This document shows, one piece after another, positions 12,166 to 28,066 of a DNA stretch of 64,000 nt. This DNA comes from Mesorhizobium sp. 113-3-3. GTDB lineage: Bacteria; Pseudomonadota; Alphaproteobacteria; Rhizobiales; Rhizobiaceae. Position 1 is the stretch's first letter, and every line of letters starts with the position of its first letter. A model generated the notes under the pieces. The model was not told the DNA's origin. It saw only the letters and a list, made by a program, of their open reading frames with translations, and did not search any database. The stretch is from the NCBI RefSeq assembly GCF_016756495.1, contig NZ_AP023243.1, positions 1,550,001 through 1,614,000 of the forward strand. The letters run 5' to 3'. The position numbers were made by a program, and so were the translations under genes.

Positions 12166-12414
12166 CTACCGATCGAAGTCCATGCGCTTCAGCCAATCCT
12201 TGCCGACGCCGCGATCCCTGATGATCGGCAGCGGGTTCTCGGAATCCAGCCGCGCGCAGATGCGGTAGACTTCGAGTGTCTCGGCGCTCATCTCGCCGCG
12301 CTTGTAGAAGAACATGGCGGCGGCATAGCGGGTGCGTCCGGACCATTTTTCGCCGAGCGGCGTGTTGACCAACTCCCACTGCTCTGCGGCCTCCAGCTCT
12401 GCGTCGTCGGCCAT
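12166..12414 (-). CDS. Hypothetical 82-aa protein, last gene of the GcvT/oxidoreductase operon
   Basis: 82 residues, acidic at the start (MADDAELEAAEQWELVNTP), then WSGRTRYAAAMFFYKRGEMS and ending in WLKRMDFDR. It is soluble and I do not recognise a domain. The start at 12414 lies 3 nt after the stop of the GcvT-like gene, so the two are translationally coupled. Reading further upstream would overlap that gene. Its position suggests a small subunit or accessory factor of the pathway; this is inference. Confidence 0.75.
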   Translation of the reverse strand: MADDAELEAAEQWELVNTPLGEKWSGRTRYAAAMFFYKRGEMSAETLEVYRICARLDSENPLPIIRDRGVGKDWLKRMDFDR

Positions 12415-12416
12415 GG

Positions 12417-13676
12417 TCAGAAATCCGCCGGCGGATTGGCGGTGCGGCGATCGAGCTTGATGAAGGGCCGCGCCACCACCTTGGCCCGTTTCATCAGCTT
12501 CTGATATTGCAGCTCGCGCATGGCGTAGATCTCGACCCACAGGTCTTCCACGACGGTATCACCATAGGGCCGCGCCAGCGAAGCGATGGCGATGTTGCGC
12601 TTGGCCATTGGGGACCACATGGCGGCGCTGACCAGGCCGACCTCCTGATGCTTCTTGTGATAGACGATGGCGTGTTCGGCCGGGATGTTGCCTTCGATCT
12701 CCAACCCGACCAGCACGTGGCGCAGCCTGCGCTTGGCGCGGGCCTCGAGGATGGCGCGGCGGCCGTTGAAATGGCCCTTTTCCGGATCGATCATGAAGCC
12801 GAGGCCGATCTCGTCAGGCCTGCGCAAGCGGTCGGCGCGGATGGCGTGCTCGGCGGTCGTGAAATCGGCATTGGCAACGATCAGCCCGGCCTCCAGCCGC
12901 GCGCGGTTGAGCGCGGTGTAGCCGATGGCCCGGATGCCGCGCAGTTCGCCGGCCGCCATCAACCGGTCCCACAGGCTCAGCGCCTTGTCGGCCGGCATGA
13001 ACAGTTCGTAGCCGAGATCGCCGGTGAAACCGGTGCGCGAGATGGTGACGGTTGCGCCGTCATGCGGGAAATCGGCAAGGTCGAAAACCTTGAGCTTCTC
13101 GACGCCGGCAAAGCCCGCATCGCGCAGCACGGCAAAGGAGGTCGGCCCTTGCAGTGCCAGCCCAGCGATAGCCTCGGTCTCTTCCTCGACAGTCACGTCG
13201 AATCCGATTGCGCTGTCGAGCAGCCAAGGCAGATGGCGCTCCTGCGAACAGAGACGAAAGCGTGTCGGCGAGAGGCGAAACAGTGTGCCGTCGTCGAGGA
13301 CAAAACCTTCGTCGTCGCACCACGCCGTATAGTGGACGCGGCCGGGTTTGAGTTTGGTGACGTCGCGCAAGGTGACGCGATCGAGGAAGGCTTCGGCTTC
13401 CGGCCCTTCTATCCGGTATTTGGTCATCGGTGAGATGTCGAACAAAGCCGCCTGGCTGCGAATGGCGAAATATTCCAGCTCCTCGTCCCACAGCGAATGC
13501 GGCGCGCGGTAGCCGGCCCAATTGTACCAGTCCTGGGTCTTTGCCAGCGCGTCCAGGCGCGGCTGGAATGGCGTGCCGAGGCGCAGCGTGCGGAAATGGG
13601 ATTGCGCGGCGATGCGGGCGGAAACGGCCGCGTCTTCTGTCTTCGCAGCGGGCTTCTTCCTGGTTGCCTGGGCCAT
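12417..13676 (-). CDS. GcvT/DmdA-family tetrahydrofolate-dependent aminomethyltransferase-like protein
   Basis: 419 residues. The folate-binding GcvT domain spans about 50-330, with the expected segment HYTAWCDDEGFVLDDGTLFR (the DD pair is the catalytic region of T-protein) and YELFMPADKALSLWDRL. The C-terminal barrel covers about 330-405. There is no dehydrogenase domain, unlike dimethylglycine or sarcosine dehydrogenases, so size fits T-protein or the DMSP demethylase DmdA. It probably moves a methyl or methylene group to tetrahydrofolate. It sits in an operon with two flavin oxidoreductases, which could supply the imine-forming step. The N-terminal 30 residues are Lys/Ala-rich and weakly conserved. 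Confidence 0.83.
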   Translation of the reverse strand: MAQATRKKPAAKTEDAAVSARIAAQSHFRTLRLGTPFQPRLDALAKTQDWYNWAGYRAPHSLWDEELEYFAIRSQAALFDISPMTKYRIEGPEAEAFLDRVTLRDVTKLKPGRVHYTAWCDDEGFVLDDGTLFRLSPTRFRLCSQERHLPWLLDSAIGFDVTVEEETEAIAGLALQGPTSFAVLRDAGFAGVEKLKVFDLADFPHDGATVTISRTGFTGDLGYELFMPADKALSLWDRLMAAGELRGIRAIGYTALNRARLEAGLIVANADFTTAEHAIRADRLRRPDEIGLGFMIDPEKGHFNGRRAILEARAKRRLRHVLVGLEIEGNIPAEHAIVYHKKHQEVGLVSAAMWSPMAKRNIAIASLARPYGDTVVEDLWVEIYAMRELQYQKLMKRAKVVARPFIKLDRRTANPPADF

Positions 13677-13679
13677 GGC

Positions 13680-15245
13680 CTATCCCTTCATCGCAATGAT
13701 GCGTCGCGCGGCGTTGAGGCCGGGAGCGCCGGAGACACCGCCGCCGGGGTGCGAGCCGGCGCCGGCCAGGAACAGCCCTTCGAGCGGCGTATCGTAGCCC
13801 GACCAGCCTGAAATGGGCCGCGAGACCAGCATCTGGTCGGCCTGCAATTCGCCATGGTGCCAGTGGCCGCCGGGCATGCCGTAGCGCGCCTCGATATCGG
13901 CCGGCGTCAGAAGCTCGGCATGGACGACACTCTTGCCGACGCCGGGCGCGTAGGTCTCGAGCTGCGCCATGACGACCTCGAGGAATTTCGGCTTGCCGGT
14001 AGCCCAGCCTTCCCTGAGCGCGTAGGGCGCGTATTGCACCACCGCCGACAGAACGCAGGCGCCATCAGGCGCGAGCGATGGATCGGCGAGGCTGGGCAGG
14101 GTGATTTCCATCACCGGTTCGGGTGAGAATTCGCCATACTTGCATGGGTTGAAGGCACGCTCGACATGATCGGGCGAGGGCGCGATGACCAGCCGTCCCT
14201 TGTGAGCGGCGGCATCGGCGCCAGTGAACTGCGGCGGCCGGTCGAGCGCCAGATGAAGCTTGGCGGCGTCGCCTTTCATGCGGATGTTTTTCACCTTGCG
14301 GAGGAAGCCGGTGTCGATTTCGCGTGGCCCGACAAGGTCGAGGAAGGTGGTCGCCGGATTGATGGCCGAGACAATTGTCCTGGCGCGCAGATCCTCGCCC
14401 GTGTCGAGCGCGACGCCGATGGCGCGGCCTTTCTCGACGATGATTTTGGCTGCGGCAGCCGATGTGCGGATGGTGACGCCGGTCTTTTCCGCCGAGGCGC
14501 GGATGGCGGCGATGACGGCGCCCATGCCGCCTCGCGGCAGGACCTGAGCACCGGCCGCTCCGCCGGTCTCGCCGGCGAGGCGATAGTAAAGGCCGAGCAA
14601 CGAGGTCGGCGAGCGCGGGCCGAGATGACTGCCGAGCGTCGCGTCGAAGGCGAGCAGGCCTTTCAGCCTGTCATCCCTGAGCTGTTCGTCGAGCAGGTCG
14701 GCGACGTTCATCAAGAGCACGCGCAGGAAGTCGCGCATGTCCTCCTTGCCGAGCTTCTTCAGCGCCAGCGCGGTCTGGCCGAGCGAAGCGGTCTCCAGCA
14801 GCGACATGCCGGCGAGATCGGGTGGGCGGCGCGAAAGGAAGGGTTTCAGGATGCCGGCATAGCGCAGCAGCTGCGCACGCAGTTCCTTCCAGGCCGACTG
14901 TTCCGAACTGCTGGCGCCGGTCAGAACCTCGCCATAGGCGCCATGCAGCATCAGCGCCGGACCGTCCTTCGACAGCGCCACCGACGGCAGGAAGTCGGCG
15001 CGGGTAAATTGCAGCCCATGCTTCTCCAACTCCAGCGTCTTCACCACATCGGGATGCAGGCGGTTCAACAGATGAGCGACCGACGAGGCGCGAAAGCCCG
15101 GGGCGAATTCCTCGGTGCGCGCCGCGCCGCCGACTTCGTTGCCTGCTTCCAGCACCAGCACCTTGCGGCCGGCTTTGGCCAGCGTGGCGGCGGCGACGAG
15201 GCCGTTGTGGCCACCGCCGATGACGATCGCATCAAATGACGTCAT
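13680..15245 (-). CDS. CrtI/PYROXD2-like FAD-dependent oxidoreductase (second copy)
   Basis: 521 residues with an N-terminal Rossmann motif ([20 protein letters not shown], then E of VLVLEAGNEVGGAART for the FAD ribose) and a C-terminal GAGSHPGGGVSGAPGLNAAR closing the FAD site. This is the phytoene-desaturase-like family that includes PYROXD2; bacterial members are not carotenoid enzymes unless near crt genes, and none are present. It overlaps the upstream paralogue by 14 nt and is followed by the GcvT-like gene after 3 nt. It probably forms a heteromer with its paralogue or acts on a consecutive step. Substrate unknown. Confidence 0.83.
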   Translation of the reverse strand: MTSFDAIVIGGGHNGLVAAATLAKAGRKVLVLEAGNEVGGAARTEEFAPGFRASSVAHLLNRLHPDVVKTLELEKHGLQFTRADFLPSVALSKDGPALMLHGAYGEVLTGASSSEQSAWKELRAQLLRYAGILKPFLSRRPPDLAGMSLLETASLGQTALALKKLGKEDMRDFLRVLLMNVADLLDEQLRDDRLKGLLAFDATLGSHLGPRSPTSLLGLYYRLAGETGGAAGAQVLPRGGMGAVIAAIRASAEKTGVTIRTSAAAAKIIVEKGRAIGVALDTGEDLRARTIVSAINPATTFLDLVGPREIDTGFLRKVKNIRMKGDAAKLHLALDRPPQFTGADAAAHKGRLVIAPSPDHVERAFNPCKYGEFSPEPVMEITLPSLADPSLAPDGACVLSAVVQYAPYALREGWATGKPKFLEVVMAQLETYAPGVGKSVVHAELLTPADIEARYGMPGGHWHHGELQADQMLVSRPISGWSGYDTPLEGLFLAGAGSHPGGGVSGAPGLNAARRIIAMKG

Positions 15246-16851
15246 GGGCCGGGCTCATATGCGAGGTGGATTTGGCGAGATCGCGCAGGATTTCGGCGGC
15301 GGCATTGCGGCCGGGCGCGCCCATGACGCCGCCGCCGGGGTGGGTCGAGGAGCCGCACATATAAAGCCCGCCGACCGGCGAGCGGTATTGCGCGTAGCCC
15401 GGCACCGGCCGGTTGAACAGAAGCTGGTCGAAGGTGAGTTCGCCCTGAAAGATATTGCCTTCGGTGAGCCCGACCTCTGCCTCGATCTCGCGCGGCGTGC
15501 GCACCTCCATATGGACGATGCGATCGCGGAAGCCGGGCGAGTATTCTGATATCTGCGCAACCACGCTTTCGGCGAAGCCGTCGCGATCGGCGTCGGTCCA
15601 GTCGCGGCCGTTCACCTTGGGTGGCGCGTATTGCACGAAGCAGCTCATGAAGTGCTTGCCCGGCGGCGCCATGGTCGGATCGAGCGTCGTCGGGATGACC
15701 ATGTCGAGGAAAGGATCGGCCGACCAGCGCCCGGCCTTCCAGTCGTCATAGGCGCGCTCCATGCGCTCCACCGAATCGGTGAAATGCATGTCGCCGCGAT
15801 AGACCGGCGAGTCCTTCGGCAGTGCGGGGAATTCCGGCAGCGAATCGAGCGCGATGTTGACCTTGCCGGAGGAGCCGCGGATCTTGAAGTTCTTGACCCG
15901 GCGCAGGAAAATGTCGGGCAGTTCCTTTTCCTCGACCAGCTTCAGGAAGGTGCGTTTCACATCGGCATTGGAGACGACGAGCTTGCCGTAGACTTCCTCG
16001 CCGCCGGCCAGCACCACGCCCTTGGCCTTGCCTCTGGCAACCAGCACATGGTCGACCTCGGCGCCGGTGCGGATGGTGCCGCCCGAAGCCTTGAACGACG
16101 CGGCCAGCGCCTTGGTGACCGCGCCCATGCCGCCGCGCGCATAGCCCCAGGCGCCGACCGAGCCGTCGACCTCGCCCATATAGTGGTGCAAGAGCACATA
16201 GGCCGTGCCGGGCGACATCGGCCCGAGCGCGGTGCCGATGATGCCGGACAAAGCGAAGTTCGCCTTGATGACATCGGTCTCGAAATATTCGTCGAGGAAG
16301 TCCGAGATCGACATGGTCCAGAAGCGCAGTGTCAGCGCCATTTCTTCGGCCGACAGGCCGGCGAATTTCTTGCCGAGATAGAGCAGCTCACCGATATCGC
16401 GCGGCTTGAGACTGGTCGGGTCGGGCGCAGTGCGCATCAGCAGCGGCTGGATGAAGCGGCACTGTCGCGTCACGTCGCGGGCGTAGCGGTCATAGGCCTC
16501 GGCGTCGCGCCTGGAGAAGCGGGCGAATTCGCGGCGGTGCGCGTCATGGTCGCGGTAGTTGGCGAGATAGTCGCCATCCCTGGTGAACACCGCGCCGCCC
16601 TCATAGGAAATGACCTGCAGGCCGAAGCGCGGCAGTTCGAGGTCGCGCATGATTTCGGGGCGAAACAGCGAGCAGACATAGGAGCAGTTGGAATAGAGGA
16701 AGCCCGGCGTCAGCTCGCGGCTGGTGGCCGCGCCGCCGACCCATTCGTTCTTCTCCACCACCAGCACGTCGAGCCCGGCGCGCTGCAGATAGCAGGCATT
16801 GACCAGGCCGTTGTGGCCGCCGCCGATGATGATCGCGTCCCATGCCTTCAT
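15232..16851 (-). CDS. CrtI/PYROXD2-like FAD-dependent oxidoreductase (first copy)
   Basis: 539 residues from the ATG at 16851, which places the FAD motif [20 protein letters not shown] at the very N-terminus as in the family; a longer in-frame extension upstream is GC-atypical, crosses the palindromic repeat and operator, and is rejected. The C-terminal signature [19 protein letters not shown] matches the paralogue downstream. It is the first gene of a four-gene leftward operon (two oxidoreductases, GcvT-like protein, 82-aa protein), divergent from the methyltransferase gene across a 253-nt region with a TTGAA-N6-TTCAA-like site. Confidence 0.83.
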
Positions 16852-16876
16852 TGTGGCCCAGTCTCTTTGTTTCCGC

Positions 16877-17005: not shown

Positions 17006-17021
17006 CTGAATGAATGTTCAA
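17006..17021. promoter_or_regulatory. Predicted BetI-like (TetR) operator 1
   Basis: The 16 bases CTGAATGAATGTTCAA fit TTGAA-N6-TTCAA with one mismatch in the left arm. It lies between the divergent oxidoreductase operon (start 16851) and methyltransferase-regulator operon (start 17105). Two further sites with perfect arms stand at 25273 and 28051 before functionally linked genes. Confidence 0.65.
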
Positions 17022-17104: not shown

Positions 17105-17893
17105 ATGATCGAAACGGCAGATGCCGAGTATGACGACACCGCCATCCGCTTCCTCGAGGCGCTGTGGGGCGAAGGCTACCTGTCGCCGGGCGGGCCCGAA
17201 GAGGTCGACCGGGTCGTCGAAGGGCTTTCGCTCGAAGGCAAGACGGTCCTCGATATCGGCTGCGGCTCCGGCGGCATCATCCTTCATCTGGTCGAGCACC
17301 ATGGCGTGGCGCATGCCACCGGCTTCGATGTCGAGCAGCCGGTGATCGAGGCAGCCAGAGGGCGCGCCGCCGCGCGCGGGCTCTCGGACCATGCCGACTT
17401 CATCCAGGCGCCGCCCGGACCGTTGCCTTTCGCCGATCGCTCCTTCGATGTCGTCTTTTCCAAGGATGCGCTGCTGCACGTGCCCGACAAGGACAGCCTG
17501 TTCGCCGAAATCTTTCGCGTGCTGAAGCCGGGTGGCGTCTTTGCCGCCTCCAACTGGATGATCGGGCATGACGGTGAACCGTCACCCGAGATGAAGGCCT
17601 ATGTCGCCGCCGAGGGGCTGTCCTTCGCCATGGCCTCGCCGGCGCGCTATGCGCAGGCGATGCGCCGGGCGGGCTTTGCCGACATCACCGTGCGCGACCG
17701 CAATCCCTGGTACCGGGAGGTGGCGCGCGGGGAACTCGCGCGGCTCAAGGGACCGCTCTACACCCGAGCCGCGGCAGCGGTCGGCGCGGCCTATGTCGAC
17801 AAGAACATCAAGACCTGGGAGGCCATGCAGAAGGTGCTTGACAGCGGCGAGCACCGTCCCACTCATCTGCGCGGTTGGAGGCCGGTTGGATAG
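17105..17893 (+). CDS. SAM-dependent methyltransferase (phosphoethanolamine N-methyltransferase-like)
   Basis: 262 residues. The class I SAM site is [17 protein letters not shown] (about 49-65), then an acidic residue in GFDVEQPV and the post-I motif [20 protein letters not shown] followed by LKPGG. The KDALLHV...LKPGG stretch resembles phosphoethanolamine N-methyltransferases, but small-molecule specificity cannot be assigned. The start at 17105 follows GATCGAGGGCTG; longer upstream frames run through the operator. It is the first gene of the rightward operon that includes the BetI-like regulator 7 nt after its stop. Confidence 0.85.
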
Positions 17894-17899
17894 CCGGCG

Positions 17900-18586
17900 A
17901 TGCTGGAGACCGTCACACCCATGAAGACTTCCGAGGCCAGGGACATTCCCGCCGAAACGGCGCAAAAGGGCGATGCCGAAAAGCGTGGCCGCAAGGCTTC
18001 GAAGGAGGTGCGCCAGCTGCAGTTGATCGAGGCGACGATCGACTCGCTGGCCAAGCGCGGCTACGCCGAGACGACGATGGCCGATGTCGCCGATGGCGCT
18101 GGCCTCTCGCGGGGCATCGTCAACTTCCATTTCGAGAGCAAGGAAAAGCTGCTGATCGCGACGCTGCAGCACATGTATGACGAGTATTCGGCGCATTGGC
18201 GCGCCTCCCTGCAGAAGGCAGGCGACGATCCGGCGCGGCAGCTGCAGCAACTGGTGTGGGCCGACTTCGACCGCTCGATCTGCAACAAGCGCAAGCTCGC
18301 CGCCTGGCTGGCCTTCTGGGGCGAGGCCAAGTCGCGGCCGACCTATCAGGCGCTGAGCAGTTCGCGCGACAATTATTACCAGCAGGTCTTCATCGATCTC
18401 TGCGCGACGCTCAAGCAGAGCGGCTCGTATGCCTATGAGCCGCAGGTGATGGCGCTGGCGCTGTCGGCCATGCTGGAGGGGCTGTGGCTGCGGCTGATGA
18501 TGGGCACCGAGGATACGACGCGCGAAACAGCCTTGCAGGCGGCCAACGCTTTCTTGGCCGCTGCCTTCCCCAAGCACTACGGTTAG
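17900..18586 (+). CDS. TetR-family regulator, BetI-like
   Basis: 228 residues (an ATG at 17921 is an alternative start). The N-terminal helix-turn-helix spans about 34-80: IEATIDSLAKRGYAETTMAD, then GLSRGIVNFHFESKEKLLIA. The ligand domain contains AAWLAFWGEAKSRPTY and MLEGLWLRLMMG, which closely parallel E. coli BetI (KAWLAFW... and DGLWLRA), the choline-responsive repressor. I infer that it represses the cluster via the TTGAA-N6-TTCAA sites and that the inducer is a quaternary or methylated amine. No betA/betB/betC genes are present, so it is not the classic choline operon. Confidence 0.87.
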   Translation: MLETVTPMKTSEARDIPAETAQKGDAEKRGRKASKEVRQLQLIEATIDSLAKRGYAETTMADVADGAGLSRGIVNFHFESKEKLLIATLQHMYDEYSAHWRASLQKAGDDPARQLQQLVWADFDRSICNKRKLAAWLAFWGEAKSRPTYQALSSSRDNYYQQVFIDLCATLKQSGSYAYEPQVMALALSAMLEGLWLRLMMGTEDTTRETALQAANAFLAAAFPKHYG

Positions 18587-18634: not shown

Positions 18635-19717
18635 ATGAAGAACCTTAGCCGACGCCTGACATTGACATTGGCGCTGGGTGGCGCGCTTGCGGCTTCGGCG
18701 GCAGCGTTTGCCGTCGCCGCCGACAAGGATCTGATCGTGTTCGACTGGTCCGGCTATGAGGACCCGAGCTTCCATCCGAAATATGTCGAGAAGAACGGCG
18801 ATTCGCCGACCTTCGCCTTCTTCGGCGACGAGGACGAGGCATTCGAGAAGGTGCGCTCGGGCTTCAAGGCCGATCTCGGCCACCCCTGCTCGCAGAGCGT
18901 AACGAAGTGGCGTGAGGCAGGCCTGCTGCAGCCGCTCGACACGTCGAAGATCACAGGCTGGAAGGACCTCAATCCCGGCATCATGGCAATGAAGAATCTC
19001 GCCACGACCGATGACGGCAAGGCTTGGTTCATGCCGTGGGACTGGGGCAACACGCAGCTCACCTATAACTCCTCCAAGATCGGCGCCAAGGACGTGCAGT
19101 CGCTGAAGGCGTTCGCCGATCCGAAGTTCAAAGGCCGGGTGTCGATCGGCGACAATGTCGACGACGCCTATGCGCTGGCAAGCCTTGCCATCGGCCTGAG
19201 GGATTGGACCAAGATGACGGACGACCAGTTCAAGCAGGCCTCCGACTTCCTGCGCCAGGTGCACAAGAACGTCCGCTCCTACTGGACCGACACCACCGAT
19301 ATCGTGCAGCTGATGAGCGGTGGCGAGGTCGACCTCGCCTGGGCCTGGAACGACGCGACGGTTCAGTCCGTCAAGGCGGGCGTGCCGATCAAGTCGGTAA
19401 AGGATACCAATGAAGGCATCTCGACCTGGGTCTGCGGCTATGTGTTGTTCAAGGATGCGCCCGGCAATGTCGACAAGGCCTATGATTATCTGAACGCCGT
19501 CAACGATCCGGAGACCGCCAAGGTGCTGGTCAAGGACTGGGGCTATGGCCAGGCCAACGCCAAGGGCATGGCCGGCGTCGACCCGGCGATCCTGAAGGAA
19601 AAGGGCTATGACGACGTGCAGAAATTCGTCGACAAGACGCTCTTCCAGTCGCCGCTGCCGTCCGATCTGAAGCTGAAGATGATCGCCGAATTCGAGAAGA
19701 TCAAAGCCGGGTACTGA
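18635..19717 (+). CDS. PotD/PotF-like periplasmic substrate-binding protein 1
   Basis: 360 residues with a signal peptide (about 1-28, cleavage near AVA-ADKD). Mature start LIVFDWSGYEDPSFHP is typical of the spermidine/putrescine binding-protein family. Trp, Tyr and acidic residues that line cation sites in PotD are plentiful (WDWGN, DWTK, WAWND). GAGGATGG lies 8 nt before the ATG. It is followed by a paralogue and then an amine oxidase; the matching ATPase and permeases lie on the opposite strand at 22177-25038. The ligand is likely a polyamine-like or methylated cation, by inference. Confidence 0.87.
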   Translation: MKNLSRRLTLTLALGGALAASAAAFAVAADKDLIVFDWSGYEDPSFHPKYVEKNGDSPTFAFFGDEDEAFEKVRSGFKADLGHPCSQSVTKWREAGLLQPLDTSKITGWKDLNPGIMAMKNLATTDDGKAWFMPWDWGNTQLTYNSSKIGAKDVQSLKAFADPKFKGRVSIGDNVDDAYALASLAIGLRDWTKMTDDQFKQASDFLRQVHKNVRSYWTDTTDIVQLMSGGEVDLAWAWNDATVQSVKAGVPIKSVKDTNEGISTWVCGYVLFKDAPGNVDKAYDYLNAVNDPETAKVLVKDWGYGQANAKGMAGVDPAILKEKGYDDVQKFVDKTLFQSPLPSDLKLKMIAEFEKIKAGY

Positions 19718-19731
19718 TCTCGTCTCGACGT

Positions 19732-19829: not shown

Positions 19830-20906
19830 ATGACGCCAATGCTACGCCGCCTGGCGCTTGCCGCCGCCTGCACGATCGGCGCCGGCGCGGCCTATGCCTG
19901 GGCGGAAGGCGGCGGCGATCTCGTGGTGTTCGACTGGTCCGGCTACGAGGACCCGCTGCTGCATCCCGCCTACACCGCCAAAAATGGCGCCGAGCCGACC
20001 TTCGCCTTCTTCGGCGACGAGGACGAAGCCTTCGAGAAGATGCGGGCGGGCTTCAAGGCCGACATCGCGCACCCCTGTTCGCAAAGCGTGGCGAAATGGC
20101 GTGACGCGGGCCTGCTGCAGCCGCTCGACACGTCGAAGATCACAGGCTGGAAAGACCTCAATCCTGGCATCATGGCGATGAAGAACCTCACCACCACGGC
20201 CGACGGCAAGGCTTGGTTCATGCCGTTCGACTGGGGCAACACGGCGCTGCTCTACCGCACCGACAATGTGACGGCGGACGAGGCGAAGTCGCTGCGGATT
20301 CTGGCCGATCCGAAATTCAAGGGCCGGGTCACCATCGGCGACAATGTCGACGATGCCTACGCGCTGGCGAGCCTGGTCATCGGCCTGAAGGACTGGACCA
20401 AGATGACCGACGCGCAATTCAAGGAAGCGTCGGATTTCCTGCGCCAGGTGCACAAGAATGTCCGTCTCTATTGGACCGATTCGAGCGATATCGACCAGGC
20501 GTTTTCCGGCAATGAGGTCGACCTTGCCTGGGGCTGGGGCCAGACGCTGATCGCGATGAGCGGGCAAGGCGTTCCCGTCGCCATGAACCGCGATACCAAA
20601 GAAGGCATGTCGACCTGGGTGTGCGGGTACGTGCTGATGAAGGACGCGCCGGGCAAGCTCGACCAGGCCTATGATTTCCTGAACGCGGTCAACGCGCCGG
20701 ACATTTCCAAATACATGGTCACGACGTTCGGCTACGGCCATGGCAACAGTGCCGGCATGGCCGCGATCGACCACAAGGTGCTGGCCGAGCGCGGCTTCGG
20801 CGACATCGACAAGTTCCTCGACAAGACGCTGTTCCAGCAGCCGGTCGCGCCCGAACTGAAGAAGCGCATGGTCGACGAGTTCGAGAAGATCAAGGCCGGA
20901 TATTGA
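19830..20906 (+). CDS. PotD/PotF-like periplasmic substrate-binding protein 2
   Basis: 358 residues, signal peptide about 1-25 (cleavage near AYA-WAEGG). It aligns end to end with the preceding protein, with long identical blocks such as FAFFGDEDEAFEK, LLQPLDTSKITGWKDLNPGI and FKGRV-IGDNVDDAYALASL. Differences concentrate in the segment around residues 225-255 (WGWGQTLIAMSGQG versus WAWNDATVQSVKAG), which lies near the expected ligand site. The duplication therefore may widen the substrate range. The stop overlaps the TTG start of the amine oxidase (TTGA). Confidence 0.87.
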   Translation: MTPMLRRLALAAACTIGAGAAYAWAEGGGDLVVFDWSGYEDPLLHPAYTAKNGAEPTFAFFGDEDEAFEKMRAGFKADIAHPCSQSVAKWRDAGLLQPLDTSKITGWKDLNPGIMAMKNLTTTADGKAWFMPFDWGNTALLYRTDNVTADEAKSLRILADPKFKGRVTIGDNVDDAYALASLVIGLKDWTKMTDAQFKEASDFLRQVHKNVRLYWTDSSDIDQAFSGNEVDLAWGWGQTLIAMSGQGVPVAMNRDTKEGMSTWVCGYVLMKDAPGKLDQAYDFLNAVNAPDISKYMVTTFGYGHGNSAGMAAIDHKVLAERGFGDIDKFLDKTLFQQPVAPELKKRMVDEFEKIKAGY

Positions 20907-22213
20907 ACGATAAAACCCAGAGAACCGACGTCGTCATCGTCGGTGCCGGCTTCACCGGCCTGTCGGCGGCGCTTGAACTGAAGCAGGCCGGCATCGATTT
21001 CCTGTTGCTTGAAGCGCGCGACCGCGTCGGCGGGAGGGTCGAGGCGATCCGCAACGGACTTGGCGAGCGCATTGACAGCGGCGGCCAGTTCCTGTGCGAG
21101 GACATGCCGGAAGTGATGGCGCTGGCGAAGGCGCGCGGCAAGACCTTCGTCGAAACCTATGTCGAGGGTGATTTCGTCACGCATCCGCCGATGCCGGCCA
21201 AGGACGCCAAGCAGACCTATCACGGCGCGATGGCGATCCGTGAGCGCATGAACGGCATCGAGCCGGACGACCCGTCGATAAAAGGCATGAGCGTCGCCGC
21301 CTGGCTCGAACGCCAGCCTGATCCTATCGATGCCAAGACCGCTTTCCGCTCGATGATCGAAGGCCTGTGGTGCCTGCCGATGGACAAGGTGCCGCTCTGG
21401 CACCTGATCGACAATGACCGGCGCATCACCAACGAGGTGCCGGAGCTGCAATATTTCCTGCGCGAGACGATGGAGTCGGTTGCCGCGGATCTGGCTGGTG
21501 ACCTCGGCCACCGGGTCCGGCTCGGCGAAGCGGTCACGCGCATCGAGCATGAGCCGCAAGGCGTTCGTGTCGTCACCGGCAATGGCGTGATCGATGCGCG
21601 CCAGGTGCTGGTCGCGCTGCCGCCGGCGACGGCCGCGAAACTCGCTTTCGCGCCGGCCTTGCCGCCCTCCCTGAGGCAGGCGCTTGGCGTTTGGGAAAGC
21701 GGCGCGGTGATCAAGATCCTGGTGCGCTATCCCCGGCCGTTCTGGCGCGAGCGGGGCTTGAGCGGCATGGTGATGTGGCGCGATCTGCCGGGGCTGTTTG
21801 CCTGCGACGCCAGCACGGATGCGGAGCATGCCGCGCTCGTCGTCTTCGTCGGCGGGCCGCTGGCGTTGCGATGGCGTGCGCTCAGCGATGCCGCGTTGCG
21901 CGCGGAAGTGACGGCAAGGCTGGTGGCTGCTCTTGGTCCGGGCGCAGGCGACAGTGTTGATTTCAGCCAGCGCGACTGGATCCATGACCGCTGGAGCGGC
22001 GGCGCCTACAGCGACCTCATCGTCGATGCGACGGCGAGGGACGCCGAGAGGGCGATTCTCGCGGGTGCGCCGCCACTGCATTTCGCCTCTTCGGAACTGT
22101 CGCCGTCATTCCCCGGCTATGTCGAAGGTGCGATCGTCGCCGGGCGCATCGCCGCCCGCAAGATCATGGCGCAGCTTCAGTCGCCCATCGCCACCAGCGC
22201 CTCGGGATCGTAG
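20903..22213 (+). CDS. FAD-dependent amine oxidase (MAO/polyamine oxidase family)
   Basis: 436 residues starting at a TTG that overlaps the upstream stop by 4 nt (TTGA), so translation is coupled. The FAD motif is VVIVGAGFTGLSAALELKQA with RVGGRVEA downstream; the C-terminal FAD contact is GYVEGAIVAGRIAA. The length fits flavin monoamine/polyamine oxidases, which convert amines to aldehydes or imines with H2O2 release. It lacks a signal peptide. Its 3' end overlaps the convergent ABC ATPase gene by 37 nt, a tail-to-tail arrangement that could produce antisense interference. Confidence 0.86.
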   Translation: MNDKTQRTDVVIVGAGFTGLSAALELKQAGIDFLLLEARDRVGGRVEAIRNGLGERIDSGGQFLCEDMPEVMALAKARGKTFVETYVEGDFVTHPPMPAKDAKQTYHGAMAIRERMNGIEPDDPSIKGMSVAAWLERQPDPIDAKTAFRSMIEGLWCLPMDKVPLWHLIDNDRRITNEVPELQYFLRETMESVAADLAGDLGHRVRLGEAVTRIEHEPQGVRVVTGNGVIDARQVLVALPPATAAKLAFAPALPPSLRQALGVWESGAVIKILVRYPRPFWRERGLSGMVMWRDLPGLFACDASTDAEHAALVVFVGGPLALRWRALSDAALRAEVTARLVAALGPGAGDSVDFSQRDWIHDRWSGGAYSDLIVDATARDAERAILAGAPPLHFASSELSPSFPGYVEGAIVAGRIAARKIMAQLQSPIATSASGS

Positions 22214-23310
22214 GCGAGGCGGATCGGGGTGCCGACCGGAATGTCGTCGGCGCCGAAATCGTTGGTCTCGGTCACCGACAGCGGCTTTTCCAGTCCCGGT
22301 ATCTCGACGATCAGATGGGTGATCTCGCCGAAATAGTGGCGTTCGACCACCTTGCCGGCGACCTCGAATTTTGCCGTGGCATTGTCCCACAGCACGCGCA
22401 GACGTTCTGGCCGTATGCCGAGCGTCGCCGCGCCGCCATTGCGCACAAAGGCCTTCGGCTTGTCGGTCTTGACGCGGCCGAAGCCGAGCGTGTCGACAAT
22501 CAATGAGGCGCCGTTCTCCTCGACGATCTCGGCCTTGACGAAGTTCATGCCGCCGAGGAAGTCGGCGACCTGGCGGTTGACCGGCCGCTGGTAGATTTCC
22601 TTGGGCGAGGCGACCTGCGCGATTTTGCCACCGAACATCACGGCGATGCGGTCGGACATTGCGAGCGCTTCATACTGGTCGTGGGTGACCAGCACGAAGG
22701 TGATGCCGACCGCTTGCTGCAGGCGGCGCAGCTCGACCTGCATCTGCTCACGCAATTTCTTGTCGAGCGCCGACAGCGGTTCGTCGAGCAGCAGCACCTT
22801 GGGCCGCATCACCAGCGCGCGGGCGAGCGCCACGCGCTGGCGCTGGCCACCGGACAGTTCGGTCGCCAGCCGCTTGCCGAGGCCGGTCAGCGAGACCTGC
22901 GCCAGCGCCTCCTCGACGCGGCGCTTCTCCTCGCCGCCCTGAAGCTTCAGCCGCTTCAGCCCGTAGGCGACGTTCTGCTCGACATTGAGGTGCGGGAAGA
23001 TCGCATAGCTCTGGAACACCATGTTGGTCGGCCGGCGGTTGGCCGGTATGCCTTCCATCGGCTGGCCGCCGACCGCGATCGAGCCGCTGGTCGGGTTGTC
23101 GAAACCGGCGATCATGCGCAGCAGCGTGGTCTTGCCACAGCCGGATGGGCCGAGCAGCGAAAAGAATTCGCCCTCCCTTATGGTCAGGGAGGCATCGTCC
23201 AGCGCCTTGAACGCTCCATAGCTGCGGGTGACGTTGCGGATCTCGATCATCGCCCGATCAGACTGGGCCCGATCCGATTGGGGGCGCTCGATCTGCGACT
23301 GGTCAGGCAT
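22177..23310 (-). CDS. ABC transporter ATP-binding protein, PotA-like
   Basis: 377 residues: Walker A GPSGCGKTT, signature LSGGQRQRVALARAL, Walker B VLLLDEPLSALD, H-loop VTHDQ, and a C-terminal TOBE region (about 290-370). It matches spermidine/putrescine-type ATPases. The ATG at 23310 overlaps the permease stop (ATGCCTGA, 8 nt). The first 20 residues (MPDQSQIERPQSDRAQSDRA) contain a short repeat and precede the conserved MIEIRNV, so an internal start at 23250 is possible. It works with the two permeases upstream and presumably both PotD-like proteins. Confidence 0.88.
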   Translation of the reverse strand: MPDQSQIERPQSDRAQSDRAMIEIRNVTRSYGAFKALDDASLTIREGEFFSLLGPSGCGKTTLLRMIAGFDNPTSGSIAVGGQPMEGIPANRRPTNMVFQSYAIFPHLNVEQNVAYGLKRLKLQGGEEKRRVEEALAQVSLTGLGKRLATELSGGQRQRVALARALVMRPKVLLLDEPLSALDKKLREQMQVELRRLQQAVGITFVLVTHDQYEALAMSDRIAVMFGGKIAQVASPKEIYQRPVNRQVADFLGGMNFVKAEIVEENGASLIVDTLGFGRVKTDKPKAFVRNGGAATLGIRPERLRVLWDNATAKFEVAGKVVERHYFGEITHLIVEIPGLEKPLSVTETNDFGADDIPVGTPIRLAYDPEALVAMGD

Positions 23311-24124
23311 AGAGGCCTCCCTCGTTCTGGGTGCGTATGGCCGCGCGGCGGCGCAGGATTTCGGCGATTGTCATCAACAGGAAAGAGGCAACCAGCAGCA
23401 GCGTGCCCAGCGCTAGCACGCCTGGCAGTTTCGAGGCGAAGCGCAACTGGCCCCAGATGTAGATCGGCAGCGTCGCTTCGGTGCCGGTCAGGAAGAAGGC
23501 GATGATGAACTCGTCGAGCGAGATGGTGAAGCAGACCAGCAGGCTGGAGATGATGGCCGGCGCCACCATCGGCAGCGTCACCCGGCGGAAGGTGCCGAAG
23601 GCGCTTTCGCCGAGATCGGCGGAGGCTTCCTCCAGGCTGCGATCAAAACCCTCGAAGCCGGAGGTGAGCACCGTCATCGAATAGGGAATGCAGATCAGGA
23701 CATGGCCGAGCACGACGGTGAACAGCGACAGGCTGAGACCCAGCTGCAGCATCACCAGCAGCATCGAGATGGCGACGATGACCTCGGGCAGCACCAGCGG
23801 CGCCATGATCAGGCCGTTGATGGTGCGGCGGCCGGGATAGCGGTAGCGGGTGATCGAACGGGCGGCGAGGATGCCTAGCACGGTGGCCAGGACCGAGGCG
23901 CAGACGCCGACTTTCAGGCTGTTCCAGGCAGCGTCGAGCAAAGCCGGCGTGTGCGGCAGGTCCGCATACCATTGCAAGGTGAAGCCTGTGAGCGGGAATT
24001 TCGGCGTCGGCGCCGTGTTGATCGAGAAGATCGGCAGGAAGATCACGGGCAGATAGAGGAAGACGATATAGAGGAACGCATAGACGGACAGCCAGCCGCC
24101 CGACAGGAAGCGCCGCGCCCTCAT
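23303..24124 (-). CDS. ABC transporter permease, PotC-like
   Basis: 273 residues, about six membrane spans. The ATPase-coupling EAA loop reads EEASADLGESAFGTFRRVTL near residues 170-190. It belongs to the polyamine/opine permease family. It overlaps the upstream permease by 4 nt (ATGA) and the downstream ATPase by 8 nt, so the three are translated together. Confidence 0.88.
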   Translation of the reverse strand: MRARRFLSGGWLSVYAFLYIVFLYLPVIFLPIFSINTAPTPKFPLTGFTLQWYADLPHTPALLDAAWNSLKVGVCASVLATVLGILAARSITRYRYPGRRTINGLIMAPLVLPEVIVAISMLLVMLQLGLSLSLFTVVLGHVLICIPYSMTVLTSGFEGFDRSLEEASADLGESAFGTFRRVTLPMVAPAIISSLLVCFTISLDEFIIAFFLTGTEATLPIYIWGQLRFASKLPGVLALGTLLLVASFLLMTIAEILRRRAAIRTQNEGGLYA

Positions 24125-25038
24125 CGTGCCAGCCTCTGCAGGGCGCGGATGATCAGCACCGTGGCACCGGCCATCAGGGTCACGATCAGCATGGTGGTGA
24201 CCGAAAGCGCGGCGCCGAGCGGCCAGTTGGCCGCCTTGCCGAACTGCGCCTGGATGGCGTTGGCGATCATGACGCCGTCCTTGCCGCCGACCAGTTTCGG
24301 CGTGACATAGTCGCCGACGGTGGGGATCATGACGATGAGCGCCGCCGAAATGACGCCCGGCGCCGACAGCGGCAAGGTCACGCGCAGGAATGAGCGCAAG
24401 GGGCCGTCGCCGAGGTCGGTGGCGGCCTCGACCAGCGTGCGGTCGACCTTTTCCAGCGAGACGAAGATCGGCAGGATGGCGAAGGCCGCCCAGGCGTGGG
24501 TGAGGGTGATGATGACGGCGCTCGAATTGTAGAGCAGAGCGGTCGACGGCTCGTCAATTATGCCGAGGCCCATCAGGCCGGAATTCAAGACGCCATTATA
24601 GCCGAGGATGACCTTCCACGACATGACGCGCAGGAGATAACTGGTCCAGAACGGGATGGTGATGAGGAACAGCCACAGGCTCTTGTGACGGCCGCCATGG
24701 AAGGAAATGTAGTAGGCGATGGGGTAGGCGAGGATGACGGTGAACAGGCTGACCGTCAGCGAAATGTAGAGCGAGCGCCACAACAGATCGCGGTAGATCG
24801 GCTCGGTCAGCGCGACGCGGTAGTTTTCCAACGTGAAGGTGCGGTCGATGGTCAGATAGTGCTGCGTCCAGAAGGAGTGGGCGATGACCACCAGGATCGG
24901 CAGGACCAGCAGGATAAGGGCGTAGAGAAAGGTCGGACTGATCAAGGCAAAGCCCTGGACGGGCTCGGATTGCAGAAGGGCATTTCGTCTGGCCCGCGTC
25001 ATGCGCAATGGAGGCGACCCTTCCACGGCCGCCGTCAT
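24121..25038 (-). CDS. ABC transporter permease, PotB-like
   Basis: 305 residues, about six membrane spans, with the EAA loop VEAATDLGDGPLRSFLRVTL near 205-225. It is the first gene of the leftward permease-permease-ATPase operon. Its leader carries a palindromic repeat at 25152-25201 and the operator at 25273-25288, which it shares with the divergent aminotransferase gene. An internal ATG at residue 13 is an alternative start. Confidence 0.87.
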   Translation of the reverse strand: MTAAVEGSPPLRMTRARRNALLQSEPVQGFALISPTFLYALILLVLPILVVIAHSFWTQHYLTIDRTFTLENYRVALTEPIYRDLLWRSLYISLTVSLFTVILAYPIAYYISFHGGRHKSLWLFLITIPFWTSYLLRVMSWKVILGYNGVLNSGLMGLGIIDEPSTALLYNSSAVIITLTHAWAAFAILPIFVSLEKVDRTLVEAATDLGDGPLRSFLRVTLPLSAPGVISAALIVMIPTVGDYVTPKLVGGKDGVMIANAIQAQFGKAANWPLGAALSVTTMLIVTLMAGATVLIIRALQRLAR

Positions 25039-25151: not shown

Positions 25152-25201
25152 GGAACGCGATCGGACGCAAAACCGGTGACCACTTTTGCTGGTCGCGTTC
25201 C
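25152..25201. repeat. Dispersed palindromic element (copy C, different family)
   Basis: GGAACGCGA (25152-25160) pairs exactly with TCGCGTTCC (25193-25201). The interior has the AAAACCGGTGACCACTTTT core that I recognise from many rhizobial intergenic repeats. It lies in the 5' leader of the permease operon. Confidence 0.65.
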
Positions 25202-25272
25202 TAGCTTGCCGGCTTTCTTTCATCATGCGCGCATCCGTGGATTGAAATCAAGCGCTATTTCTGAGATATTGA

Positions 25273-25288
25273 TTGAACGGACATTCAA
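25273..25288. promoter_or_regulatory. Predicted BetI-like (TetR) operator 2
   Basis: TTGAACGGACATTCAA: TTGAA and TTCAA are perfect inverted arms around 6 nt. It is located between the divergent ABC operon (start 25038) and aminotransferase gene (start 25373). Confidence 0.7.
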
Positions 25289-25372
25289 AATCAGGTGAAG
25301 AAAGCCGTCATCTGCGGTATTGCCACCGAATTCGAGGTCCTTGAAAAAATCGAAAGAGATGTGGAGACGACG

Positions 25373-26791
25373 ATGGCTGCGGTGAGGGATCTGAAGGCGA
25401 CCGAAATGGCGGCGGCAGGCGGCGACGATGCCATTGAACTGGGCAAGCGCCACCTCATCCAGCCCTGGCCTTATGCCGGTTCCGTCGGCGCCGAAGCCCG
25501 CGCGCTGATCGGCGAAGGCGACGGTATTTACATCACCGACAACACCGGCAAGCGGCTGATCGACGGGCCTGCCGGCATGTGGTGCGTCAATGTCGGCCAC
25601 CGCCGCGAGGAACTCGCCAGGGTGATGTACGATCAGGCGATGGCGCTGTCCTACAACACGCCCTGGTACACGATGAACGCGCCGTCGGCCGAACTTGCCA
25701 TGCGCATCGCCGGCCATGCGCCGGGCGATCTCAGCCATGTCTTCTACACGACCGGCGGCTCTTCGGCCGTGGAGACGGCGCTGCGCTTCATGCAGTTCTA
25801 CAACAATGTGCGCGGCCGCCCGGAAAAGAAGCTGATCCTGTCGCGCGGCGGCGCCTATCACGGCTCGACCTATCTGTCGGCCTCGCTCAACGGCCGCCCG
25901 CGCGACCGCGACTGGATGGACGGCGCCGACGAGCTGGTGATCAAGCTGTCCTCGCCCGACCCGTTCCGCCGCCCGAAAGGCATGAGCGTCGCCACCTTCA
26001 CCGACTTCCTCGTCGATCAGTTCCGCGACACGGTCGCCCGTGTCGGCGCCGACAGAATAGGCGCTTTTGTCGGCGAGCCGGTGCAGGCATCGGGAGGCGT
26101 CGTGATCCCGCCGGACGGCTATCTCAAGCGCATCCGCGAGATCTGCCGCGACTACGACATCCTCTACATCTCCGATGAGGTGGTGACAGGCTTCGGCCGG
26201 CTTGGCCATGTCTTCGCCTCGGGCGAGGTGTTCGGCATCGATCCCGACATGATCACCTTCGCCAAAGGCGTCACCTCAGGCTATTTCCCGCTCGGCGGCG
26301 TCATCATCTCGGAACGGCTGCTGGAAGAGTTGCGCCGCTCGAACCATCCAGACGCAATGTTCGGCCATGGCCTGACCTACACCAGCCATCCGGTCGGCTG
26401 TGCCGTGGCGCTGAAAAATCTCGACCTGCTGGAAGAGGGCGTGCTCGCTCACACGCAAGCGGTCGCGCCCTATTTCCAGGCGCAGCTCAAGACGCTGGAA
26501 GAACTGCCGTTGGTCGGCGAGGTGCGCGGCGCCGGGCTGATGGGCTGCGTCGAATGTGTCGCCGACCGCGAAAGCAAGGACCCGCTGCAACTCGACAAGG
26601 ATGTCGGCAAGCGCATCGACGCCCACTGCCATGAACTCGGCCTGCTGGTGCGGCCGCTGATCAACATGTGCGTGATGTCGCCGCCGCTGATCATCACGCG
26701 CGAGCAGATCGACGACATGGTCGGCATTTTGCGCGAGGGCATTTCGCGGACCATGGATGATCTGCGCCGTGAAGGTGTGTGGCGAGGGTGA
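25373..26791 (+). CDS. Class III (omega) PLP aminotransferase
   Basis: 472 residues from the ATG at 25373, which has GTGGAGA 6 nt upstream; a GTG at 25295 is in frame but begins 7 nt after the operator. PLP motifs: TTGGSSAVETALRFMQFY near 125-142, YISDEVVTGFGRLG (the Asp that contacts the pyridine nitrogen) and FAKGVTSGYFPLG with Schiff-base lysine K298. It resembles omega-amino acid:pyruvate and putrescine-type transaminases. In context it would deaminate a primary amine produced after N-demethylation or uptake of a polyamine-like compound. It has no separate terminator other than the shared hairpin downstream. Confidence 0.86.
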   Translation: MAAVRDLKATEMAAAGGDDAIELGKRHLIQPWPYAGSVGAEARALIGEGDGIYITDNTGKRLIDGPAGMWCVNVGHRREELARVMYDQAMALSYNTPWYTMNAPSAELAMRIAGHAPGDLSHVFYTTGGSSAVETALRFMQFYNNVRGRPEKKLILSRGGAYHGSTYLSASLNGRPRDRDWMDGADELVIKLSSPDPFRRPKGMSVATFTDFLVDQFRDTVARVGADRIGAFVGEPVQASGGVVIPPDGYLKRIREICRDYDILYISDEVVTGFGRLGHVFASGEVFGIDPDMITFAKGVTSGYFPLGGVIISERLLEELRRSNHPDAMFGHGLTYTSHPVGCAVALKNLDLLEEGVLAHTQAVAPYFQAQLKTLEELPLVGEVRGAGLMGCVECVADRESKDPLQLDKDVGKRIDAHCHELGLLVRPLINMCVMSPPLIITREQIDDMVGILREGISRTMDDLRREGVWRG

Positions 26792-26796
26792 GGTTT

Positions 26797-26828
26797 CTTC
26801 CTTCTCCCGTAGAACGGGGAGAAGGAAG
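26797..26828. terminator. Bidirectional hairpin between convergent aminotransferase and Rieske genes
   Basis: CTTCCTTCTCCC (26797-26808) pairs perfectly with GGGAGAAGGAAG (26817-26828) across 8 nt. Its core is also a familiar rhizobial dispersed palindrome (CTTCTCCCG...CGGGGAGAAG), so it may be a mobile repeat co-opted as a terminator. Confidence 0.7.
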
Positions 26829-28031
26829 CTACGACCGCGACCTCAGCGCGTCGTTCAGATTCCACATGTCCTTCTCCTCCGGCGCGGTCTCCAAGCCTAG
26901 AACGGGCAGCATCTTGCGCAGATGGTCGTGGTGGGTGCGCACGCCATATTCGAGGTCGGAGAGATAGAAGCCCTCAAAGGCTTCGGACAGCATGGATTCG
27001 TTCGACCACACCGACAGCTGGACATCTTCCGACATGGTGTCACGGTCGATGCGGAAGGACAGGTAGCGGGCGGCGGCCTGCTCGCGGCTTTCGTCGCGGT
27101 AGCGGTAGATGGCGCCGCGCAAAAGGGTTTCACCCGTCGAGAGCGGAAACTCCTGATAGAACTGCACGGATTCCGGCATCACCGAAATAACGGCATTGGG
27201 GAAGATACCGTAATAGACCCAGGCCTTCTTCAGATGGTCCGGCAGATGCGTCGGCTCGGGCGCGATCTTGACGTAGTTCTTGACGCTCCAGCGGCGGCCG
27301 GCATGCGGATTGTAAGTGGCGAAGGAGCGCGACACGCCGTTGATGAAGGGCTCGTCGAAATAGGTCGCGCCATAGAGATCCTGCAGGGCGGGATGCGCCA
27401 TGGCGACGTGATAGCCCTCATTGTCGACATCGCGCACCGACTTCCAGTTGACGGGAGTCTTCTGGGTCCAGATGCCCCAGGACGGCACCATGTCGGCAGC
27501 CTTGTAATGCGCGAATTCAGGCTCGATCGGCTTCATCAGCTCGGCGACCGAAGGCTGCGGCCCGCCATTGCGGAAGCGGATGAAGATGAAGCCCATCCAG
27601 ACTTCCAGGTCGAGTTGCATCAGGCCGAACTCGGTCTTGTCGAGATCGGGGAAGGAGCGCGGGCGCGCGGCGCCCCGCAGCGTGCCGTCAAGATTGTAGA
27701 CCCAACCGTGGAACGGGCACACCAGCGCGTTCTTGCAATTGCCCTGGCTGTCGGCGACGACACGGCTGCCGCGGTGGCGGCACATATTGTTGAAGCCGCG
27801 CACGACGCCGTCCTTGCCGCGCACGATCAGGGCGCGTTCGCCGACCACGTCCATGGTCAGATAGTCGCCGGCGTTCGGGACGTCGGAAACATGACCGACG
27901 ATCTGCCAGTGGTTTCGGAAAACATGTTCCTTCTCGAGCTCGAGAAGGGCATCGGAATGGTAACTCCAGCCCGGTAGTCCCCGCCGGTCCCAATCGTTGG
28001 GGATCGCCACGTCACGGAGGTGCGGGTTCAT
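26829..28031 (-). CDS. Rieske non-heme iron oxygenase alpha subunit
   Basis: 400 residues. The Rieske [2Fe-2S] site is C84-x-H86 and C105-x2-H108 (CRHRG ... VCPFHGW). The mononuclear iron site is H208 and H213 in NEGYHVAMAHP with a C-terminal Asp in the SEDVQLS region; D201 or D203 is the likely electron-bridging residue. The architecture resembles glycine-betaine/carnitine/choline-type monooxygenases that open an N-methyl or C-N bond, although aromatic substrates cannot be excluded. It needs a reductase, and none is encoded in the window. A perfect operator lies 20 nt upstream of its start. Confidence 0.88.
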   Translation of the reverse strand: MNPHLRDVAIPNDWDRRGLPGWSYHSDALLELEKEHVFRNHWQIVGHVSDVPNAGDYLTMDVVGERALIVRGKDGVVRGFNNMCRHRGSRVVADSQGNCKNALVCPFHGWVYNLDGTLRGAARPRSFPDLDKTEFGLMQLDLEVWMGFIFIRFRNGGPQPSVAELMKPIEPEFAHYKAADMVPSWGIWTQKTPVNWKSVRDVDNEGYHVAMAHPALQDLYGATYFDEPFINGVSRSFATYNPHAGRRWSVKNYVKIAPEPTHLPDHLKKAWVYYGIFPNAVISVMPESVQFYQEFPLSTGETLLRGAIYRYRDESREQAAARYLSFRIDRDTMSEDVQLSVWSNESMLSEAFEGFYLSDLEYGVRTHHDHLRKMLPVLGLETAPEEKDMWNLNDALRSRS

Positions 28032-28050
28032 AAAACGTCTCTTCTTTTTG

Positions 28051-28066
28051 TTGAATAATCATTCAA
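28051..28066. promoter_or_regulatory. Predicted BetI-like (TetR) operator 3
   Basis: TTGAATAATCATTCAA has perfect TTGAAT/ATTCAA arms around 4 nt and fits TTGAA-N6-TTCAA. It stands 20 nt upstream of the Rieske ATG at 28031. Confidence 0.72.

Follow-up and report, generated by a model that had tools for sequence, protein, structure and literature searches.

The window analyzed here comprises 64,000 nucleotides of the 7.73-Mb genome of Mesorhizobium sp. 113-3-3 (contig NZ_AP023243.1, positions 1,550,001 to 1,614,000 of the forward strand), a soil bacterium related to legume symbionts. It contains at 12.2–28.1 kb a gene set that probably constitutes a substrate-inducible catabolic regulon for the import and demethylation of an N-methylated cation or betaine. 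One small repressor, a TetR-family protein encoded within the set, probably switches the genes via three matching operator-like sites. The set consists of a minus-strand unit (fadB, fadA, a GcvT-like gene and a gene for an 82-aa protein) and a plus-strand unit (methyltransferase, TetR, two PotD-like binding proteins and amine oxidase), followed by an ATP-binding cassette (ABC) ATPase gene with two permease genes (minus strand), a class III aminotransferase gene (plus strand) and a Rieske oxygenase gene (minus strand); the operon limits are deduced from gene spacing. The features, in window coordinates, are:

12166..12414, minus strand: conserved 82-aa protein, final gene of the gcvT operon (a correction to the earlier reading); predicted to be all-helical, mean predicted local distance difference test (pLDDT) score 82.7
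12417..13676, minus strand: GcvT-like protein with a folate-binding domain, nearest to the C-terminal half of trimethylamine N-oxide (TMAO) demethylase
13680..15245, minus strand: FadA, second CrtI-like FAD oxidoreductase, 37% identical to FadB
15232..16851, minus strand: FadB, CrtI-like FAD oxidoreductase
17006..17021: operator-like site A, CTGAATGAATGTTCAA, one mismatch, between fadB and the methyltransferase gene
17105..17893, plus strand: S-adenosylmethionine (SAM)-dependent class I methyltransferase
17900..18586, plus strand: TetR-family regulator with a BetI-type C-terminal domain (PF13977)
18635..19717, plus strand: PotD/PotF-like periplasmic binding protein 1
19830..20906, plus strand: PotD/PotF-like periplasmic binding protein 2
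20903..22213, plus strand: flavin amine oxidase (PF01593), accessory, present in 67 of 80 loci
22177..23310, minus strand: ABC transporter ATPase with a TOBE_2 domain
23303..24124, minus strand: ABC transporter permease
24121..25038, minus strand: ABC transporter permease
25273..25288: operator-like site B, TTGAACGGACATTCAA, a perfect match in the gap separating the ABC operon from the aminotransferase gene
25373..26791, plus strand: class III aminotransferase of the PRK07036 family (730.9 bits, cut-off 618)
26829..28031, minus strand: GbcA/CntA-like Rieske oxygenase alpha subunit, with the bridging Glu205 and with Asp203 replacing CntA Tyr203
28051..28066: operator-like site C, TTGAATAATCATTCAA, a perfect match roughly 20 bp upstream of the start codon of the Rieske gene

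An earlier sequence-only reading of this DNA had pointed out three sites of the form TTGAA-N6-TTCAA; all three were found where it placed them, with the mismatch counts it claimed, and nothing else in the 64 kb matches with one mismatch or fewer. Shuffled versions of the window contained on average 0.69 such sites, and since 4 of 100 shuffles reached three, the three sites taken alone are only weakly beyond chance; the strength of the site evidence comes from genome-wide specificity, conservation in 80 loci and the alignment of conserved blocks. In the whole genome the sole two perfect TTGAAYNNNNRTTCAA sites are B and C, this pattern (TTGAAY-N4-RTTCAA) having been narrowed after the sites had been seen, so that no other perfect site points to further regulon members. 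With one mismatch allowed, TTGAAYNNNNRTTCAA occurs 27 times versus 21 times for the reversed control, and such sites elsewhere therefore mean little; the narrower TTGAATNNNNATTCAA occurs nine times versus two. The same reading had assigned four transcription units to three control regions: the three regions stand, whereas the units, counted singly, are five (fad/gcvT; methyltransferase, TetR, both binding proteins and amine oxidase; ABC; aminotransferase; Rieske).

Eighty named loci were fetched by the TetR protein, the TetR relatives being mostly titled Mesorhizobium, and each region was scored where its flanking genes could be placed, which gave 76 loci for region A, 70 for B and 51 for C (4, 10 and 29 loci, respectively, were unscorable). 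A site with at most one mismatch was present in 76 of 76 A regions (47 perfect), 70 of 70 B regions (65 perfect) and 49 of 51 C regions (48 perfect), that is, in 195 of 197 regions pooled, counts that are not independent because the loci are related. Outside these regions the same loci contain one perfect and 19 one-mismatch sites in 1,504,071 bases, and the lone perfect one lies upstream of a relocated ABC operon in Xaviernesmea (L121). In the two loci lacking site C (L050 and L097) the Rieske genes are truncated. Most B and C sites follow TTGAAYG-NN-CRTTCAA. In alignments of 78 (A), 73 (B) and 52 (C) distinct sequences, site A falls within the best-conserved block of its region (rank 6 of 133 windows), site B within one of the two best blocks of region B (rank 8 of 229), and site C comes 16th of 138, the Rieske start region being better conserved. 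The co-conservation of the motif in related genomes, proposed earlier as a check, is thus borne out, and site specificity and conservation support a single, locally acting regulon.

Region B has a second conserved block, GATTGAAATCAAGCGC (25240–25255), which starts about 30 bp upstream of site B and is conserved equally well; it is possibly the site of a second regulator or a promoter element.

Orthologous clusters with scattered units lacking the motif had been named in advance as the observation that would speak against the regulon; the scattered units found in five genomes of the genus instead keep the motif, in every unit inspected. In these genomes (G028, G043, G059, G093 and G141) no fadB, fadA or gcvT match lies at the tetR unit, and the Rieske gene is 31–37 kb away from tetR. 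Each of the three separated units (tetR, aminotransferase/ABC and Rieske) has retained a site with no more than one mismatch in G028 and G141; in G043, G059 and G093, where the tetR unit was inspected, it keeps a one-mismatch site. In a genome-wide search at E <= 1e-100, FadB is absent from G028, and its match in G043 is only a 40% paralogue. The gene for the 82-aa protein stays beside the site where fadBA-gcvT is missing.

Beyond the genus, every one of the three regions has a site with one mismatch or none in the plasmid clusters of Rhizobium SL42 and Ensifer, in a Shinella plasmid cluster two sites of this quality are accompanied by a third, read by eye, that has two mismatches, and the more distant L189 and L190, whose FadB is 61% identical, each have two one-mismatch sites just upstream of fadB. 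The genes also persist in plasmid clusters of two Rhodobacterales, Fuscovulum (L154) and Parasedimentitalea (L155), with TetR proteins 41% and 34% identical, respectively, and with the motif absent from their control regions. L155 (position 15912) and L187 (position 8322) have in common a perfect palindrome, TTTGAGCGCTCAAA, located in the tetR-fadB interval or where fadB has its 5' end; together with the diverged helix-turn-helix of the L155 TetR, this palindrome suggests co-evolution of operator and regulator.

The regulator and the Rieske oxygenase also occur together. Among 146 genomes of the genus, TetR (E <= 1e-30) was found in 119 and the Rieske protein (E <= 1e-120) in 116; 116 genomes have both, three have TetR only (G098, G122 and G128), none has the Rieske protein only and 27 have neither (Fisher p = 2e-26, relatedness ignored). 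Matches are partial for Rieske in G051, G054 and G091 (the last with a stop) and for TetR in G122.

The description of the regulator as BetI-like holds in part: it has the BetI-type ligand domain and passes the PRK00767 BetI model (128.6 bits, cut-off 118), but misses the BetI equivalog TIGR03384 (126.5 bits, cut-off 201.3), and the sites follow TTGAA-N6-TTCAA rather than the betI box, given as ATTGACG*CGTCAAT in the available part of PMC12442346. Two higher-scoring BetI genes, above the cut-off, are located elsewhere in the genome. The system thus resembles the bet regulon in combining a TetR protein with a BetI-type domain and palindromic sites at uptake and oxidation genes for a presumed methylated cation, and the TTGAAC half-site also appears in the flank common to the BetI2 boxes of R. 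pomeroyi (same source, available part); it differs from that regulon in the missed equivalog model, the operator TTGAAYG-NN-CRTTCAA and the two BetI genes elsewhere. No bet, dimethylglycine dehydrogenase or sarcosine dehydrogenase genes were seen among the cluster genes; no genome-wide search for them was made.

In the order of steps that we infer, a dimer of the BetI-like TetR protein would bind TTGAAYG-NN-CRTTCAA-type operators in the three regions and repress the five units, and the imported compound or its metabolite would free it from them. The PotD-type ABC importer would bring in a monocationic N-methylated compound (a quaternary amine or an omega-trimethylammonio betaine), from which the Rieske oxygenase would take off the first methyl group as formaldehyde (R-NMe3+ to R-NMe2). 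FadB and FadA would oxidize the remaining N-methyl groups, their GcvT-like partner would move the methylene to tetrahydrofolate (THF), the class III aminotransferase would turn the freed primary amine into an aldehyde, and an aldehyde dehydrogenase, one of which is encoded in the L184 cluster, would then oxidize it. The importer, the logic of Rieske and folate-dependent demethylation and the transaminase, as previously read from the sequence, are supported.

The nearest solved structure to the Rieske protein is CntA (118.6 bits) and its nearest NCBIfam model is GbcA (128 of 670 bits). Alignment to CntA shows that the bridging Glu205, which places the protein in the quaternary ammonium group (group V), is kept, while Asp stands for Tyr203 and Gly206/Val209 for the Cys pair; all four residues are invariant in 26 of 26 aligned proteins (that of the window and 25 of 48 full-length distinct orthologs), and a pattern search found the same Rieske stretch in 55 of 61 loci. 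According to the available text of PMC7948474, an aromatic residue at CntA Tyr203 makes a pi-cation contact and marks group Va, the C-N-cleaving subgroup. Asp203 separates the present protein from this CntA and choline monooxygenase type, and it also falls outside the Cys-X-X-Cys (C206/C209) subset, a pair found in some group V members (PMC10952381, available part). Because the aromatic residue is missing, the protein appears, by the PMC7948474 criterion, nearer to the demethylating subgroup and resembles N-demethylases. Its AlphaFold model was unusable (mean pLDDT 34.6). It is like GbcA and Stc2 (group Vb) in having the bridging Glu but lacking an aromatic side chain at the Tyr203 position, and a folate-domain protein in the same gene set recalls glycine betaine and stachydrine demethylation; unlike in those systems, the GbcA score is low, no reductase gene was seen, and the presumed later demethylases are CrtI-like flavoproteins with a separate GcvT rather than DAO-type dimethylglycine and sarcosine dehydrogenases.

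The nearest named families of both flavoproteins are carotenoid enzymes, whose cut-offs they miss: FadB scores 135 of 238.1 bits against CrtI (TIGR02734) and 307 of 1000 against CrtO (NF045689), and FadA 111.8 and 240.8 bits, respectively. The GcvT-like protein likewise misses the TMAO demethylase (Tdm) model NF053776 (249.1 of 1100 bits, profile positions 370–728 of 763), DmdA (NF009133, 109.4 bits, cut-off 410) and the gcvT models (206.0 and 154.0 bits, cut-offs 300 and 235.85); with 142.6 of 1164 bits against soxA and with the flavin and GCV_T domains in separate genes, the set does not classify as dimethylglycine dehydrogenase or sarcosine oxidase. The G-[YF]-E and R-[LF]-E-A stretches of the Bacillus and Thermotoga T proteins are conserved in the GcvT-like protein. 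It resembles Tdm in its nearness to the Tdm C-terminal half and in a common DDGTLFR stretch, and differs from it in lacking the N-terminal half (DUF1989-type domains in the available part of PMC12560246) and in adjoining flavoproteins. Since the same text states that THF is not required for Tdm activity, formaldehyde release being lowered by it only slightly, folate transfer in our system is a step that we infer.

In UniRef, two close relatives of FadB (P0098 and P0103) carry a name starting with ‘Pyridine nucleotide-d’, which we read as the PYROXD2 name, so that the likeness to human PYROXD2 is by database name and not by alignment. In the available parts of the human studies, a missense variant of PYROXD2 accounts for 50% of the variance in plasma N6-methyllysine and 48% of that in N6,N6-dimethyllysine, and variants also associate with trimethyllysine and N-methylpipecolate (PMC8109053) as well as with trimethylamine and dimethylamine (PMC3169529); the parts of the papers available give no established reaction for the protein. 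The points in common are the name, borne by the two FadB relatives, and the link of PYROXD2 variants to N-methyl amines; unlike the human protein, the bacterial flavoproteins are paired and have a GcvT partner. We tentatively propose, with the balance tilting somewhat against the idea, that FadA and FadB together make up a heteromeric dehydrogenase for N-methyl amines, with the PYROXD2/CrtI fold, that passes its methylene to a separate GcvT/Tdm-like folate protein. Such an enzyme would be a second, independently evolved solution to dimethylglycine and sarcosine dehydrogenation and a bacterial model for the action of PYROXD2 on N-methylated lysines. FadB orthologs with at least 64% identity occur in 20 of 397 genomes of the order; FadB was found in 17 of 385 genomes of the class (E <= 1e-180) and in 11 of 398 of the phylum (E <= 1e-150), all 11 from its own class. 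Two apparent gene fusions were rejected: in the FadA-GcvT frame of L164, which as a true in-frame fusion would have counted as strong evidence, the sequence departs from FadA after residue 162 until GcvT begins at residue 553, and a protein search with it gave one partial match, while the 1119-aa transaminase-FadB frame of L159 has no Pfam transaminase match in its N-terminal part.

Among named families, PotD and PotF are closest to both binding proteins, all scores falling below the cut-offs (binding protein 1: PotD NF007048, 90.6 of 582 bits, PotF NF007962, 73.9 of 636 bits; binding protein 2: 81.4 and 64.5 bits). At PotD Asp168, Glu171 and Asp257, which we take to be the amine-binding acids, binding protein 1 has Asn, Asp and Cys, whereas the Trp residues at aligned positions are conserved; this pattern hints at a ligand with one cationic end. 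The polyamine-like ligand considered in the sequence-only reading is thus not favored, two of the three acids being altered, and the ligand is not readable from sequence. The aminotransferase model is named ‘aminotransferase’ only; among the matches listed for the ten proteins scanned, only this protein (PRK07036) and the regulator (PRK00767, not TIGR03384) pass an NCBIfam cut-off.

Among the compounds that the proposed regulon could serve, an omega-trimethylammonio carboxylate (gamma-butyrobetaine, delta-valerobetaine or beta-alanine betaine) is a possible but doubtful special case, in which three demethylations would yield gamma-aminobutyrate, 5-aminovalerate or beta-alanine and the class III transaminase a semialdehyde. 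The omega-type transaminase, the non-CntA residue at Rieske position 203, the aldehyde dehydrogenase of L184, the coenzyme A (CoA) ligase genes adjoining the cluster in L158 and L193 and the acyl-CoA dehydrogenase gene in L160 are in line with it; yet no family model identifies the substrate, the ligase and acyl-CoA dehydrogenase matches are far under their cut-offs, L158, L193 and L160 carry the other transaminase subtype, and the methyltransferase is left unexplained. We regard as unlikely the other special case, degradation of mono-, di- and trimethyl-lysine from protein turnover, with FadA and FadB acting on epsilon-N-methyl groups as human PYROXD2 may: the UniRef name and the human variants tracking N6-methyl-lysines and N-methylpipecolate (PMC8109053, available part) speak for it, but the relation is one of name and a human association does not establish enzyme activity. 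Lysine import, moreover, is normally carried out by other transporter families.

That the regulon serves methylated or ordinary polyamines seems very unlikely. The PotD/PotF families, polyamine-binding proteins among the best PDB matches of binding protein 1 and the PF01593 amine oxidase would fit, but the PotD and PotF cut-offs are missed by far, the presumed amine-binding acids are replaced (Asn and Cys for Asp168 and Asp257, Asp for Glu171), and no amine oxidase is present in 13 of 80 loci, some of which are truncated by the end of a contig. Very unlikely as well, in our view, is that FadA, FadB and GcvT have a lipid- or terpenoid-like substrate instead of amines, with the sites conserved merely along with the region. 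Besides the carotenoid families, the nearest solved structure of FadB, a phytoene dehydrogenase, would agree with this; however, the carotenoid scores are far below the cut-offs, the sites are kept where units are scattered and the fad module is missing, and the GcvT partner and the Rieske protein point to C1-nitrogen chemistry.

Several observations weigh against the regulon for import and demethylation of an N-methylated cation or betaine. The literature search gave no CrtI-family flavoprotein shown to demethylate amines, and no Rieske reductase was found among the cluster genes, the remaining window having been scanned in part only. The SAM methyltransferase, retained in 72 of 80 clusters, has no place in a purely demethylating route. 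The fadB-fadA-gcvT module is separable, because the five rearranged genomes lack it at the tetR unit and retain the other units; the regulator and the gene set are not inseparable, since the two Rhodobacterales relatives keep the genes with a diverged TetR and no motif. Four of the 80 named loci (L050, L076, L097 and L100) have apparently decayed clusters with truncated genes, which suggests that the locus is dispensable, and the counts as a whole come from related genomes.

Presence was counted over the 80 named loci, many of them incomplete because a contig or the 10-kb flank ends within them: GcvT was present in 76, FadA in 75, FadB in 77, a binding protein in 76, the ATPase in 73, the aminotransferase in 71 and the Rieske protein in 59; the ten-gene core is complete in 56 loci, and 55 have at least two binding-protein places. 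The SAM methyltransferase is found with either transaminase subtype, an unexpected feature in a pathway that demethylates. The predicted fold of the 82-aa protein had no significant PDB match (best E 6.4), and the protein resembles the N-terminus of a dimethylsulfoniopropionate (DMSP)-lyase-family cupin in Fuscovulum (L154:25647-26498).

Neighboring genes in orthologous clusters, only part of which were scanned, support methylated-nitrogen chemistry without naming the substrate. They include a GbcA-like second Rieske gene in L154, L155 and L187 and a DmdA-like second GcvT gene, below the cut-off, in L193, none of these second copies exceeding an NCBIfam cut-off where tried; the aldehyde dehydrogenase gene of L184 lies between gcvT and the aminotransferase gene. 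An old yellow enzyme-type flavoprotein is encoded in L153 and L155, and the DMSP-lyase-family cupin of L154 is accompanied by an amidohydrolase. L209, one of five such genomes without fadBA-gcvT in the cluster, and the only one of them with this gene, has an MttB-family gene (PF06253, above the Pfam cut-off; L209:1404-2957) without in-frame stop between the binding protein and amine oxidase genes; some non-pyrrolysine MttB homologs are quaternary-amine methyltransferases according to the available part of PMC8604678.

In the window, genes for a PAS/GAF hybrid histidine kinase and a response regulator with a C-terminal DNA-binding domain adjoin the cluster (29054–32035), and an AcrB-type resistance-nodulation-division efflux pump with an HlyD-type membrane-fusion partner is encoded at 34310–38832. 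The M19 dipeptidase (11104–12162) and the sulfatase (7317–8882) are neighbors in the genus and are not counted as parts of the regulon, because M19, matched in 67 of 105 loci including decayed clusters, was found in none of the 25 loci outside L042–L121.

The gene combination had not been recognized as a described pathway, and the literature search, with most subscription journals and bioRxiv preprints outside its coverage, gave no paper describing it; nor did it give a matching cluster for homarine catabolism, which was considered as a known answer and rejected. As a clean regulon in a tractable genus, the locus lends itself to testing. If FadA and FadB act as proposed, they would provide a bacterial system in which PYROXD2-type chemistry can be measured, and the pathway, if true, would be a further way in which a set of alphaproteobacteria obtains one-carbon units from methylated amines.

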